Origin: Coriobacteriia bacterium
Lineage (GTDB): Bacteria > Actinomycetota > Coriobacteriia > WRKU01 > JAENWW01
Direction of reading: 5' to 3'
Length of the DNA stretch: 49,428 bases
Assembly: GCA_016649875.1 (NCBI GenBank)
Contig: JAENWW010000011.1
Location: 1 to 49,428, forward strand
The notes beneath the pieces were generated by a model that ran no database searches, was not told the origin of the DNA, and was given only the letters and a program-made list of their open reading frames with translations. Position numbers and translations under genes: made by a program. Positions 23,150 through 33,281 of this stretch are shown here, in pieces (the first letter of the stretch is position 1; the number at the start of each line of letters is the position of its first letter).

Positions 23150-23866
23150 CTATTCGCTCCGGAAAGCGTCGTCGAGTGCAGCTTGTGCCGCCGCTTTTTC
23201 GGCCACTTTTTTGGAAGCGCCCGCGCCTTGTGCGACGACGATATTATTGACTGAGACTTCAGCTACGAAACTCGGGCTATGCGAAGGACCTTCGACGGAT
23301 ACGATATCGTAAGATACCGAGCCGCCGCATGCCTGAACTTTCTCTTGTAAAAGAGATTTCGGACTACTCTTATCCGCAGCAATCTCGGGATTGATACAGT
23401 CGCCCAGGCAACCGAGTACCCAAGCGGTTGCAACTGCCATTCCTCCATCGAGGAAGAGAGCGGCTGTAATCGCTTCGAAAACATCTTCCAAAGCGGAGTG
23501 CATTCCCCGCGATCCCGCGCTCAACTCACTCGTTCCGAAAATGACGCACTCCTGCAGACCTTTTTCGACGGCAGCTTCCGACAAAAAATTTCCATTGACG
23601 ACGGCAATGCGCATCTTAGTCAAGATTCCCTCATCGATATCGGGAAAACGGCGATACCCCTCGAGACCGACGGCGAAACCGACGATCGAATCTCCGAGAA
23701 ATTCAAGCCGTTCATAGCTGAGATGTGAATCACCTTCGACTGCAGAAGGGTGAGTGATCGCTTGAAGCGCAAGCGACTTATCTTTAAACACATGCGAAGT
23801 AATCGCTTCGACGCGCGAAACACGATACTCCACGTCCTTTTTGTCCTTTAACGCATCATAGGTCAT
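23150..23866 (-). CDS. rnc: Ribonuclease III
   Basis: 238 residues. Cleaves double-stranded RNA in rRNA processing. Catalytic signature ERLEFLGDSIVGFAV, second acidic site ALEDVFEAITAALFLDGG, and a C-terminal dsRNA-binding domain (about 165-235) ending KKVAEKAAAQAALDDAF. It precedes smc, as in many Gram-positives. The usual upstream acpP is separated from it by a terminator. Confidence 0.95.
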   Translation of the reverse strand: MTYDALKDKKDVEYRVSRVEAITSHVFKDKSLALQAITHPSAVEGDSHLSYERLEFLGDSIVGFAVGLEGYRRFPDIDEGILTKMRIAVVNGNFLSEAAVEKGLQECVIFGTSELSAGSRGMHSALEDVFEAITAALFLDGGMAVATAWVLGCLGDCINPEIAADKSSPKSLLQEKVQACGGSVSYDIVSVEGPSHSPSFVAEVSVNNIVVAQGAGASKKVAEKAAAQAALDDAFRSE

Positions 23867-23946: not shown

Positions 23947-24186
23947 TTATTTCGCCGTCATGAAAAAGTCCGCTACATCTCCGACTGTCTTAATCGATTC
24001 GATTTTGTCATCGGGAATCGAAGAGCCGAATGATTCTTCGAAAGCCATAACGAGCTCGACAACGTCTAAAGAATCTGCTCCGAGATCTTCGGCGAATGAA
24101 GCTGACTCCACAACGGAGCTTTCATCGCAGTCCAAAACATCGACAACGGTCTCACGTATCTTTTCAATTACTTGGGTACGTTCCAT
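23947..24186 (-). CDS. acpP: Acyl carrier protein
   Basis: 79 residues, acidic. The phosphopantetheine attachment Ser lies in [16 protein letters not shown]. It carries acyl chains for lipid synthesis and can donate to PlsX or accept from it. The ATG follows GGAGG. It comes directly after the fabD-like gene, with neither fabG nor fabF between or beyond, unlike the usual plsX-fabD-fabG-acpP-fabF order. Confidence 0.95.
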
Positions 24187-24219: not shown

Positions 24220-25164
24220 TTATTGTCGCGCTTCAATGGCGCCGATGCGTTCTTTTAAACTATCCACACCATTTTCGTCGGCATATTGGGTCACGGGGAT
24301 TGCAGTCAGGTCGGTGTGGACGAGGTACCCGGAAAGTATACTCCCCGCCCCGCACTCGATTGCGATATCGATTCCGAATTCGTCACGCGATGCCAGTACG
24401 GCTTCTCGAAAACGCAACGGCGAAGTGATTCCGCTCAAAAATACCTCTTTAATTTCTCGGGCATCCGTGTGCGGGCGCGCATCGTAACACGACATGAACG
24501 GAATCGTCGCCTCACGAAACTCGGCTTTTTCAAGGATCTTACGCATCTCGTCTTGAGCCGCCACCATCATGGGCGAATTGAGAGCACCGGGCAAAGGAAG
24601 CGTTACCGCACGTCGTGCACCGGCATCGATCAAATCGGTCTCAAGCACATTCAAGCTCGAAGAAACGCCGGAAATCCCAACTTGGTTTTGGGAGTTATCG
24701 GCCGAAATCCAGACATTGGGCGTATCCTCTATCACCGCTTCGACGGCAGCCCTCTCCAGCCCGAGCACGGTCATCGACGCTCCATCGCTGTTCTTCGTAG
24801 CCTCTATGGTCGCCTTCGCATAGAGCGAAGAGAGCGTCACACCAGCGCCGATCGAAATGACTCCCGAAGAAACAAGCGCGGCGACTTCGCCGATACCATA
24901 GCCCAATGTCGCCTCATGCACGATTTCATTCTCTTCGAGATAGCGACCCCATACGGCATCTATGAGCATAATCATCGGATACGATGCCCGAATGTCGACA
25001 AGCGCACTTTCCGGACCGTCGGAAACGATACGTTCGAGTTGCAAACCGGAATGCGCGGAGGCGGCATCCATAAGACGGACTACATCCACTTCTTCGGGCA
25101 AGCGCTGGAACATTCCGACTTGCTGAGAACCGAATCCGGGAAATACAAATAATTTATTCACCAC
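24220..25164 (-). CDS. FabD-like malonyl-CoA:ACP transacylase homologue, catalytic residues lost
   Basis: 314 residues, the usual FabD length and in the FabD slot between plsX and acpP. The fold is recognisable: FPGFGSQ for FPGQGSQ, AALVSSGVIS, GASMTVLGL, NQVGISG, SPLRF and IECGAGSILSGYL. The active site is not. GHSLGE has become GYGIGE, so the nucleophile Ser is Gly90; the catalytic His motif (HSPLM or similar) is LNSPMM, with Asn196; the Arg of the LVRLRG region is replaced by Tyr; the Gln before the SPVRW motif is Gly. All four residues known to be needed in E. coli FabD are changed, while the frame is open and the flanks are conserved. It is probably a pseudoenzyme, perhaps binding ACP or PlsX. 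GTG start, possibly the next GTG at 25161. Confidence 0.85.
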   Translation of the reverse strand: MVNKLFVFPGFGSQQVGMFQRLPEEVDVVRLMDAASAHSGLQLERIVSDGPESALVDIRASYPMIMLIDAVWGRYLEENEIVHEATLGYGIGEVAALVSSGVISIGAGVTLSSLYAKATIEATKNSDGASMTVLGLERAAVEAVIEDTPNVWISADNSQNQVGISGVSSSLNVLETDLIDAGARRAVTLPLPGALNSPMMVAAQDEMRKILEKAEFREATIPFMSCYDARPHTDAREIKEVFLSGITSPLRFREAVLASRDEFGIDIAIECGAGSILSGYLVHTDLTAIPVTQYADENGVDSLKERIGAIEARQ

Positions 25165-25172
25165 TACCTCGC

Positions 25173-26186
25173 TTATCCGACATCTTGATTGAGGAGATTT
25201 ATGATATTTTTCGTGAGAATATCGGTGAGATCGTTTCTAACGGCTCGCGCGGTAACGAGAATCCCACTTTCGATCGCCTGCGCCGAAGAGGGGCCATGGC
25301 CTATGGCGCACACGCCTTTCACACCGAGAAGCGGCGCTCCGCCGAACTGATCGGGGTCCATGTCGTCTTTCAGTGACTTTATGGATCCTGCGAGGGGGGC
25401 CGCTAAAATTTTCTTACCGGTACTCGACGTCAAAGCATTTTTGACACGTCCGAGAAGAATCTTCGTCGAGCCTTCGAGAAGCTTTAAAGAAACGTTGCCC
25501 GTAAAGCCATCGGTGACGATAACGTCGAATTCACCCGACAAAAGATCTTGCCCTTCGGCATTTCCCACAAAGCCCGGCAACGATGTGCGCATCAACGCAT
25601 TGGCTTCCTGCGCAAGCACGGAGCCTTTCGTGTCTTCTTCGCCGATGTTGAGCAAGGCGACCTTAGGATCCTTCAAACCGAAGACCGCTTGGGCATACGC
25701 CTTTCCCATGAATCCGAACTGAAGAAGATTCTCAGGTTTGCAATCGGCGTTTGCTCCGATGTCCAGCAATATCGTCGGTTTGCTCGCGCCGGGAAGCACC
25801 GTAGCCAATGCGGGACGACTCACTCCCCGTATACGGCCTATGATGAGTGTCGCCGCCGCCATGCTCGCCCCCGTCGATCCGGCGGAAAAAAGGCCTTGGC
25901 ATATCCCCTCTTTCACAAGACGGGAACCGACGACGATGCTGGAATCTCTTTTGGAACGGACCGCACTGGCGGGGTGTTCACCCATACCGATTATTTCACT
26001 TGCGGGCACAGCCACGACTCTGCCGGGGAAACGCGCTGCAAACGGATTGACAATGTCAGCAGGCCCGACGAGATGGACAATGATATTCGAGTCACTCGAA
26101 AGAGCTTTCTCGACACCCTCGAGAACGACTTTCGGTGCAAAATCGCCGCCAACAGCGTCGACAGCGATGGATACAGGTCGGCTCAA
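25173..26186 (-). CDS. plsX: Phosphate acyltransferase PlsX
   Basis: 337 residues. Makes acyl-phosphate from acyl-ACP (reversibly) for PlsY in phospholipid synthesis. Signatures: IAVDAVGGDFAP, the GMGEHPASAVRSKRDSS segment, GSTGASMAAA, LDIGANADCKPENL and DGFTGNVSLKLLEG. The frame opens with a TTG at 26216, but GGGAGG stands five bases before a second TTG at 26186, which gives the expected N-terminus. With FakA/FakB nearby it can convert acyl-phosphate from exogenous fatty acids to acyl-ACP. Confidence 0.93.
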   Translation of the reverse strand: MSRPVSIAVDAVGGDFAPKVVLEGVEKALSSDSNIIVHLVGPADIVNPFAARFPGRVVAVPASEIIGMGEHPASAVRSKRDSSIVVGSRLVKEGICQGLFSAGSTGASMAAATLIIGRIRGVSRPALATVLPGASKPTILLDIGANADCKPENLLQFGFMGKAYAQAVFGLKDPKVALLNIGEEDTKGSVLAQEANALMRTSLPGFVGNAEGQDLLSGEFDVIVTDGFTGNVSLKLLEGSTKILLGRVKNALTSSTGKKILAAPLAGSIKSLKDDMDPDQFGGAPLLGVKGVCAIGHGPSSAQAIESGILVTARAVRNDLTDILTKNIINLLNQDVG

Positions 26187-26221
26187 AATTGCCTCCCAAC
26201 TGATTTGTGTGAACAAATAAG

Positions 26222-30753: not shown

Positions 30754-31635
30754 CTACGCTTCGGGAGAAGACCATTTTTGAGGATAAAACGCCACGCCGC
30801 ACGCTTGGGGAACATACGTTCCGATCACCGGACCGTTGCTTCCGGTGTGGACTTCTCGCCCGTCGACTCCAGCTTCATTGAGCGCTTCGCGCAAAATCTC
30901 AATATCGTTCCGATCGGTTGTATAAATGAGCGTGTAGTCGAGCGGACCCAACCTTTTCGAACAGGATGAGACATACTTCGCGAGTTCGGCCACGGCTTTC
31001 TTCCGCCCACGGCACCGTTTGAAGGGCGTAATCACCCCTTGCTCGTCGAGTGTGAGAATGGGCTTGATATCGAGCAACGATGCCGCCAAACCGGCAGCCA
31101 AACCGGCACGACCGCCTTTCACGAGATTGTCCATGGTGTCGATTATGAACAAGAGACTCGTTTTCGCAGAGATGACTCTGACTTTTTCCGCGATTTCTTC
31201 CGAATCCATTCCTTCATCACGCAACGCGCATGCCGCACGGACTATCAGACCGAGCCCTTGTGTGACACTTTTCGTGTCAATGCAATATACGGGTATCGAT
31301 AGGCCTTTCGCCATGAGTCTCGAAGCCTCGTATGAGCCTGAAAGTGCCGAAGAAAGCGAAAGAGACACGATTCCATCGCAACCCTGCGCCACGAGGTTCT
31401 CATACGCTTTGCGATACTGCGCGGGAGAAGGTTGCGATGTTTTGGGAAGTTCATCGGAGCGTGCGAGTCGTTCGTAAAACTGCGGAGTAGTCATCTCAAT
31501 CGCATCAAGAAAGGTTTCGTCACCGAAACTGACGCGGAGTGCGACCAGTTCAACATTTAAATTCCCAAGCTCTTCCACCGTCAAATCGCAGGTACTATCC
31601 ACCATGATTCCGACTTTAGACATAACTTTAGACAT
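30754..31635 (-). CDS. DegV family fatty-acid-binding protein (FakB-type)
   Basis: 293 residues. DegV fold: KVGIMVDSTCDLTVEEL, KTSQPSPAQYRKAYE, SLSSALSGSYEASRLM and a C-terminal GPVIGTYVPQACGVAF. In FakB the Ser of the first SxxxSG motif contacts the fatty acid and a His in GPVIGTH helps bind it; here that His position is Tyr. FakB presents a fatty acid to FakA for phosphorylation. It is adjacent to fakA, unlike S. aureus where they are unlinked. ATG 31635 has AAGGA ten bases upstream; a 12-bp tandem duplication (ATGTCTAAAGTT) creates a second ATG at 31623. Confidence 0.88.
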   Translation of the reverse strand: MSKVMSKVGIMVDSTCDLTVEELGNLNVELVALRVSFGDETFLDAIEMTTPQFYERLARSDELPKTSQPSPAQYRKAYENLVAQGCDGIVSLSLSSALSGSYEASRLMAKGLSIPVYCIDTKSVTQGLGLIVRAACALRDEGMDSEEIAEKVRVISAKTSLLFIIDTMDNLVKGGRAGLAAGLAASLLDIKPILTLDEQGVITPFKRCRGRKKAVAELAKYVSSCSKRLGPLDYTLIYTTDRNDIEILREALNEAGVDGREVHTGSNGPVIGTYVPQACGVAFYPQKWSSPEA

Positions 31636-31661
31636 AAAGGGAATGTCCTTCCAGCGTGTCG

Positions 31662-33281
31662 TTATTCAACGGAAATGAGAACGGGATACAAAGGCTGCTC
31701 ACCACGGTGGGTTTCAACATCTATCCAGTCATACTGTTCTTTGAGATTTTTTGCTATCGCATCGCCTGCTTCGTCGGTAAATCCTTCACCGAGAAGAAGC
31801 GTGAGCGTTTCGGAATCTTCATCAACCAAGATTTTCGCTAAATCGAAGACGACTTGTTCGACCGAATCACCGACCGTTTCGATATCTTTCGAACCGACTA
31901 TGCCGATTATCTGCCCGGCCTTTATATCACCGACATTGCTCTTTGCATCTTTGACCGCCGTCGTGACCTCGGCGGTTCGCACGTCGATGATGGCCTCGCT
32001 CATCTCTTCGACGAGCTCATCGAAGTCCATGCTTTGGTCGAACATGAACAACGCCGCGAATGCCTCCGGAACCGAACGCGTCGGTATAACGGCTGCCGGA
32101 ATATCCAATACCGATACGGCGGCGTTGGCCGCCATGATGATATTTGAGTTATTCGGAAGGAAAATCACCTTATCGACGTTGAGTGTAGAGGCTGCCTCCA
32201 CGAGGTCTTGCGTCGACGGGTTCATCGTCTGTCCGCCGGAAACGACCACATCGACTCCGAGCGATTTCAAAATTTCGATGAGGCCGGCCCCCGATGCGAC
32301 GCTGACGACTCCGATCGCTTTGTGCGGAGCATTTTCTTTCGATGGGGTACCTTGCGTTGCGGGACGCTCGGCCGCCTGACGACGCATATTGTGGATATGG
32401 ACCTCTGAAATCTCGCCCAAACCGAGTGCATAGCTCAAAATTTCGGAAGGATCATCGGTGTGAACGTGAACTTTATACGGTCCGGAATCACCGACGACGA
32501 GTTCGCTTCCTCCGCGCGCGGCTATGTAGTCGTGCACACGTTCCCTGTCGATCCCCTCTCCGAAAAGGAGAAATTCCGTACAGTAAAGATATTCATCGTC
32601 GTCCCAATCATCCACGGGAGTGACGGTCATGACTTGCATATCTCCGAGCACGGGAGCTTCGGCCTGCTGGCGACCGAGTAACGCCGAGACGAAACCGTTG
32701 AACCATATTGACAGTCCGAAACCACCGGCATCGACGACCCCGGCCTCTTTGAGTACCGGGAGCAATTCGGGAGTACGGCGCACGGAAGCGTACGACTCGG
32801 CCACGACTGAATCGAGGGCCTCCTCGAATGTGACCTCGGCATCGGCCGCAGCACGAGCTGCAACCGACATATCCCGGATAACCGTCAGAATCGTTCCCTC
32901 CACAGGTTTGCGGACCGCTTGGAAGGCAACCGTCGTGGCCGTTTCGAGAGAAATCGCGAGGCACAAAGTCGGCGACAGGTCGCTCGATTCGAGGAAGCCT
33001 TCACAAGCCCCACGGATTATTTGAGAGGTGATAACGCCCGAGTTACCGCGAGCGCCCATAAGCGAACCGTGCGTTGCTGCTTTGCACACATCTTCGAGCG
33101 GTGCATCAGCCGGCAACTTGGCTACATCGTTTGCGACTGCGTCGAGCGTGAGTGACATGTTCGTTCCCGTATCGCCGTCGGGAACGGGAAACACGTTCAA
33201 CCTATTCACTTCATCGACACGATTTTTAAGTGCAAGCGCAGCCGAAGCGACCAGGTTGCGTACAGAAGAATATTGAATCAT
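31662..33281 (-). CDS. fakA: Fatty acid kinase subunit FakA (DAK2/YloV type)
   Basis: 539 residues. The N-terminal DhaL/DAK2 domain has the nucleotide site NRLNVFPVPDGDTGTNM and GARGNSGVITSQI; the middle domain has the conserved YLYCTEF and HVHTDDP; the C-terminal domain (about 320-539) is DegV-like. FakA phosphorylates fatty acids bound to FakB, and the acyl-phosphate enters lipids through PlsX/PlsY. The preceding gene is asp23, the same order as in Firmicutes. ATG follows AGGTT. Confidence 0.92.
   Translation of the reverse strand: MIQYSSVRNLVASAALALKNRVDEVNRLNVFPVPDGDTGTNMSLTLDAVANDVAKLPADAPLEDVCKAATHGSLMGARGNSGVITSQIIRGACEGFLESSDLSPTLCLAISLETATTVAFQAVRKPVEGTILTVIRDMSVAARAAADAEVTFEEALDSVVAESYASVRRTPELLPVLKEAGVVDAGGFGLSIWFNGFVSALLGRQQAEAPVLGDMQVMTVTPVDDWDDDEYLYCTEFLLFGEGIDRERVHDYIAARGGSELVVGDSGPYKVHVHTDDPSEILSYALGLGEISEVHIHNMRRQAAERPATQGTPSKENAPHKAIGVVSVASGAGLIEILKSLGVDVVVSGGQTMNPSTQDLVEAASTLNVDKVIFLPNNSNIIMAANAAVSVLDIPAAVIPTRSVPEAFAALFMFDQSMDFDELVEEMSEAIIDVRTAEVTTAVKDAKSNVGDIKAGQIIGIVGSKDIETVGDSVEQVVFDLAKILVDEDSETLTLLLGEGFTDEAGDAIAKNLKEQYDWIDVETHRGEQPLYPVLISVE

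Follow-up and report, generated by a model that had tools for sequence, protein, structure and literature searches.

A predicted FabD-fold pseudoenzyme beside plsX and acpP in a Coriobacteriia genome

Gene content of the locus and catalytic residues

The window, a stretch of 49,428 nucleotides from a Coriobacteriia bacterium, derives from a genome of 1.41 Mb that is 98% complete (G000). FabD belongs to the core enzymes that bacteria use to make fatty acids, and its usual position is occupied here by a gene that we call fabD*. The local gene order is plsX-fabD*-acpP-rnc, then smc and ftsY, with the following features:

24220..25161, minus strand: fabD*, predicted FabD-fold pseudoenzyme (GTG start at 25161 preferred, 25164 also possible)
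24886..24903, minus strand: former nucleophile elbow GHSLGE, now GYGIGE (Ser92 to Gly90; read from the sequence, plus or minus a few bases)
25173..26216, minus strand: plsX, phosphate acyltransferase (TIGR00182, 321.7 bits, above cut-off)
23947..24186, minus strand: acpP, acyl carrier protein (PF00550, 54.6 bits; DSL motif present)
23150..23866, minus strand: rnc, RNase III (smc and ftsY come next; synteny)

The fabD* reading frame is intact over 24220-25164 (minus), as the first-pass annotation had reported. Translation probably begins at the GTG at 25161 rather than 25164, because the former aligns with the ATG of the homologue in G001 (MNKL) and is better spaced from a GAGG. plsX is located 8 bp upstream (counted from the GTG at 25164) and acpP 33 bp downstream. 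Elsewhere in the window (30754-33281, minus), a gene for a DegV-family protein (FakB-like) adjoins one for a FakA-like fatty acid kinase; given this pair, the organism may also use exogenous fatty acids via PlsX.

The fabD* protein matches PF00698 (Acyl_transf_1) at 82.2 bits (threshold 32.7). Against TIGR00128 it scores 161.5 bits, under the equivalog cut-off of 260.9, as do its homologues in the same slot of three relatives (185, 152 and 159 bits). The single operon FabD scanned is above the cut-off (277 bits), and the two residue-intact second copies scanned (see below) are slightly under it (244.7 and 243 bits). In the alignment to E. coli FabD, Gln11 (of GQGSQ) is replaced by Phe, Ser92 by Gly90, Arg117 by Tyr115, His201 by Asn196 and Gln250 by Gly. 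The original claim that all four known catalytic residues are lost thus stands for Ser92, His201 and Arg117, and the loss of Gln11 had been overlooked. Gln250 is not diagnostic. E. coli FabD uses this residue through its main-chain carbonyl, and we give the position little weight, dropping it as a catalytic marker, because it is His in the intact FabD of this same genome and in several FabDs of family f6; the fabD* of G003 and G004 keep Gln.

The positions of Q11, S92, R117 and H201 are occupied by Y, G, L and Y in G001, and by Y, D, L and N in both G003 and G004. The same positions are therefore lost in all relatives carrying the gene, with partly different replacements, which excludes a sequencing error at 24890-24910. 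The Ser92-His201 dyad is absent from all four proteins (Gly or Asp at 92, Asn or Tyr at 201), as are the malonate-related Arg117 (Tyr or Leu) and Gln11 (Phe or Tyr), and no GHSxGE motif occurs elsewhere in the whole fabD* sequence. In a PksD acyl hydrolase related to FabD, S99A and H201N abolish activity (PMC11775670). Since the known reaction requires the Ser-His dyad, it is very unlikely, judging by residue content, that fabD* is a malonyltransferase.

The losses extend beyond the active-site residues. Among 41 FabDs with the four catalytic residues intact (drawn from the class, with the E. coli protein added), 30 alignment columns are invariant; 17 are kept by all four fabD*, 3 are mixed and 10 are changed in all four (Q11, T59, Q63, S92, L93, R117, M121, N160, H201 and V255). 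Several of these ten line the FabD pocket, and positions 11 and 63, both Gln in FabD, are aromatic in every fabD*. Also lost from all four is the basic pair K286/R287, which is basic in at least 90% of the residue-intact FabDs and which, given this conservation, we take to contact AcpP. Thus, ordinary ACP docking by fabD* is not assured.

The AlphaFold2 model of fabD* has a mean pLDDT of 96.7 and a pTM of 0.94, and Foldseek aligns it to E. coli FabD (1mla) with a TM score of 0.87, to bacterial FabDs with 0.84-0.89 and to human MCAT (8csp_8) with 0.80. The input alignment was rich in FabDs, which biases the model toward this fold. The confident prediction supports a folded, full-length protein, in agreement with the initial reading that FabD length and fold are kept. 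On residue content and predicted structure, fabD* is a pseudoenzyme with a conserved fold from which the catalytic residues have been lost.

A second FabD and the descent of fabD*

The genome encodes a second FabD (G000:C3:50605-51444), which had been proposed as something to search for and in which Q11, S92, R117 and H201 are intact. It sits in a fabK-fabD-fabG cluster, adjoined by FabF and a FabZ-like protein. Second FabDs with the same four residues intact were also identified in G001 and G003. Contamination as the source of the G000 copy was rejected, as codon usage in the surrounding 20 kb agrees with that of the window (r 0.94), although this is not proof. The gene and its cluster are consistent with a working FAS II, again not proof of one. 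FabH was not found in the whole genomes of G000 and G001, which do have FAS II genes; assembly gaps are possible.

The gene order is plsX-fabH-fabK-fabD-fabG-acpP in many of the families that make up the class and plsX-(acpP)-rnc in others. In a tree of 46 sequences, the four fabD* form one clade (99/97) within the group of operon FabDs (100/99), and the second FabDs from G000, G001 and G003 fall apart from both. Profile scores agree with the tree, operon FabDs reaching 220-280 bits and most others no more than about 160, and in a plsX tree the order lies close to the operon families (87/97). The fabD* branches are long (0.64 plus 1.36 or 1.8, compared with about 0.5 for operon FabDs), a caveat on the placement. 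From gene order and phylogeny, we regard fabD* as a vertical remnant of the ancestral plsX-fabH-fabK-fabD-fabG-acpP operon, and the intact FabD on C3 as belonging to another lineage.

The second FabDs (L001, L003, L013) do not group together: that of G000 places with f6 and those of G001 and G003 with f4/f7, despite G000 and G001 being of one family. The pattern points to independent origins for the replacing copies, with horizontal transfer as a candidate explanation, and makes repeated replacement of FabD within the family possible.

Retention of fabD* and its distribution relative to FAS II

fabD* occupies the plsX/acpP-rnc slot in four genomes of one order and two families (G000, G001, G003 and G004), and all comparisons draw on these four sequences. 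Identity to the G000 protein is 53% for G001 (same family) and about 35% and 36% for G003 and G004 (the other family). The last two are 72% identical overall, and theirs is the sole pair with a measurable dN/dS, G000/G001 being saturated at synonymous sites. The value, which the first-pass annotation had proposed to check, is about 0.20 (dN 0.227, dS 1.15), higher than for plsX (0.13), rnc and smc in the same comparison. Thus, judged from one pair, fabD* is retained under purifying selection. This is not one gene decaying in a single genome: the slot homologues in the three relatives lack the same residues and have intact frames. A profile search of 400 sampled genomes of the class and 397 of the phylum gave no match outside the order that comes close to the fabD* scores (494-543 bits; the best other match scores 280 bits, residues having been inspected for a minority of such matches). 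Among the sampled genomes, the carriers of fabD* are a few related gut-type Actinomycetota.

FabF, FabK and FabZ proper were found, within the order, only in G000, G001 and G003, all of which carry fabD*. The remaining hits are one FabF match of atypical kind, in G010, and weak FabK-like ones, in G000 (C7) and G005. Lacking both fabD* and FAS II genes proper are G005, G006, G007, G008, G010, G011, G012 and G013; G002 and G009 are uninformative, as neither has a match to plsX. No FabD-family match was found in genomes without fabD* except for one in G010 (G010:C15:2428-3354, L054), which has none of the FAS II cluster genes. This match was rejected as a fabD*, as it is a PKS-like acyltransferase in a 1669-aa ORF that may be a real PKS or contamination.

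fabD* is thus present in 4 of 12 genomes with plsX, including 3 of 3 with FAS II (p about 0.02, calculated by hand and ignoring kinship), and parsimony on one gene tree (plsX) requires at least three losses. The exception is G004 (87% complete), which keeps fabD* and in which the second FabD, FabF, FabK, FabH and FabZ were not found. In G003 the second FabD and these FAS II genes are clustered within about 5.5 kb, so a contig may be missing from G004. Because of this genome, the link between fabD* and FAS II is suggestive, not established, and the joint absences could stem from overall genome reduction or from gaps in MAGs that are 59-94% complete.

Several relatives have plsX and acpP side by side without fabD*. 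PlsX/ACP function as such is therefore independent of it. A non-catalytic role under selection, as first proposed, is in keeping with the residue content, the conserved fold and the second intact FabD. Its suggested form, binding of ACP or PlsX, gains no specific support: loss of K286/R287 would weaken a mechanism of ACP docking, and fabD* tracks FAS II, with one exception, rather than plsX and acpP.

Possible roles and known systems

Our preferred reading, to which we give about even chances, is that fabD* is a vertically inherited FabD that became non-catalytic and has been maintained in a role linked to FAS II, its catalysis having been replaced by the second FabD. From the ancestral operon, fabH, fabK and fabG would have moved out, and malonyl-ACP formation would have passed to a FabD from a different lineage, encoded elsewhere within a fabK-fabD-fabG-fabF-fabZ cluster, as its intact residues and cluster context suggest. 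The old FabD would have lost its catalytic residues, kept its scaffold and persisted as a non-catalytic protein. Selection on a dead copy makes it probable that the protein has gained a new, non-enzymatic function in the synthesis or use of fatty acids. Since fabD* is missing where no FAS II genes were found, a docking or regulatory subunit, active when FAS II operates and placed where FAS II, ACP and PlsX meet, seems most likely. We infer this order of events and the FAS II-linked function from residue loss, synteny, phylogeny, predicted fold and selection in one pair.

Alternatively, fabD* may have become redundant once the second FabD arrived and now be functionless, under relaxed constraint and heading for loss. 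The long branches, the several losses within the order and a dN/dS exceeding that of plsX, rnc and smc fit slow decay. An unconstrained gene would hardly retain open frames in four genomes of two families at 34-72% identity, and the dN/dS of 0.20, the 17 scaffold columns kept throughout and the high-confidence predicted fold also count against decay, which we consider unlikely. The pocket may instead have been remodelled for another acyl ligand (an aromatic residue at both 11 and 63, and either Asp or Gly at 92), giving a new enzyme or ligand binder. The type of change at 11 and 63 is consistent in all four proteins, and G003 and G004 share the same residue at 9 of the 10 replaced positions (not significant given 72% overall identity). 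The replacements at 92 (G/D), 117 (Y/L) and 201 (N/Y) vary between or within families, unlike those of a shared new active site, and leave this a slim prospect.

A role outside lipid metabolism, for example in rRNA or ribosome assembly, appears more doubtful still. Human mitochondrial MCAT, a FabD relative, acts as an assembly factor for the small subunit of the mitochondrial ribosome and contacts rRNA (PMC9892005). The fabD* model matches its structure (8csp_8, TM 0.80), and rpmF and rnc are neighbours of the locus. Linkage of rpmF to plsX and of plsX to rnc, however, also occurs in other families without fabD*, the net charge of fabD* (-9 to -19) is similar to that of residue-intact FabDs, and its absence from lineages lacking FAS II would require a separate reason.

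No FabD pseudoenzyme was found described in the open-access full-text literature, as the first-pass annotation had stated for this operon position, although this is not proof of absence. With FabD/MCAT itself (malonyl-CoA:ACP transacylase; TIGR00128, PF00698), fabD* shares length, predicted fold, operon position and scaffold motifs, and differs in being without Gln11, Ser92, Arg117, His201, six more invariant residues and K286/R287. PksD-type acyl hydrolases of trans-AT PKS have an AT fold that lost the malonate-binding Arg and kept the Ser-His dyad (PMC11775670). Loss of the Arg is common to both, whereas fabD* also lacks the dyad and so falls outside the trans-AT acyl hydrolases, defined by a Ser-His dyad with the Arg replaced. 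Human MCAT, which is also a fatty-acid enzyme, provides a precedent for a second purpose of the FabD fold beyond acyl transfer. In type II PKS, the chain length factor (KS-beta) is an inactive paralog that sits beside an active enzyme and has a proven heterodimer partner. It differs in fold, and the analogy lies in an inactive FAS/PKS paralog kept beside an active one. By extension, a complex of FAS II and PlsX might depend on fabD* as an essential subunit without catalytic function, its pocket plugged by aromatics, although we think this improbable. A conserved dead FabD beside plsX and acpP, together with an intact FabD of another lineage, constitutes a natural experiment on the non-catalytic functions of FabD.
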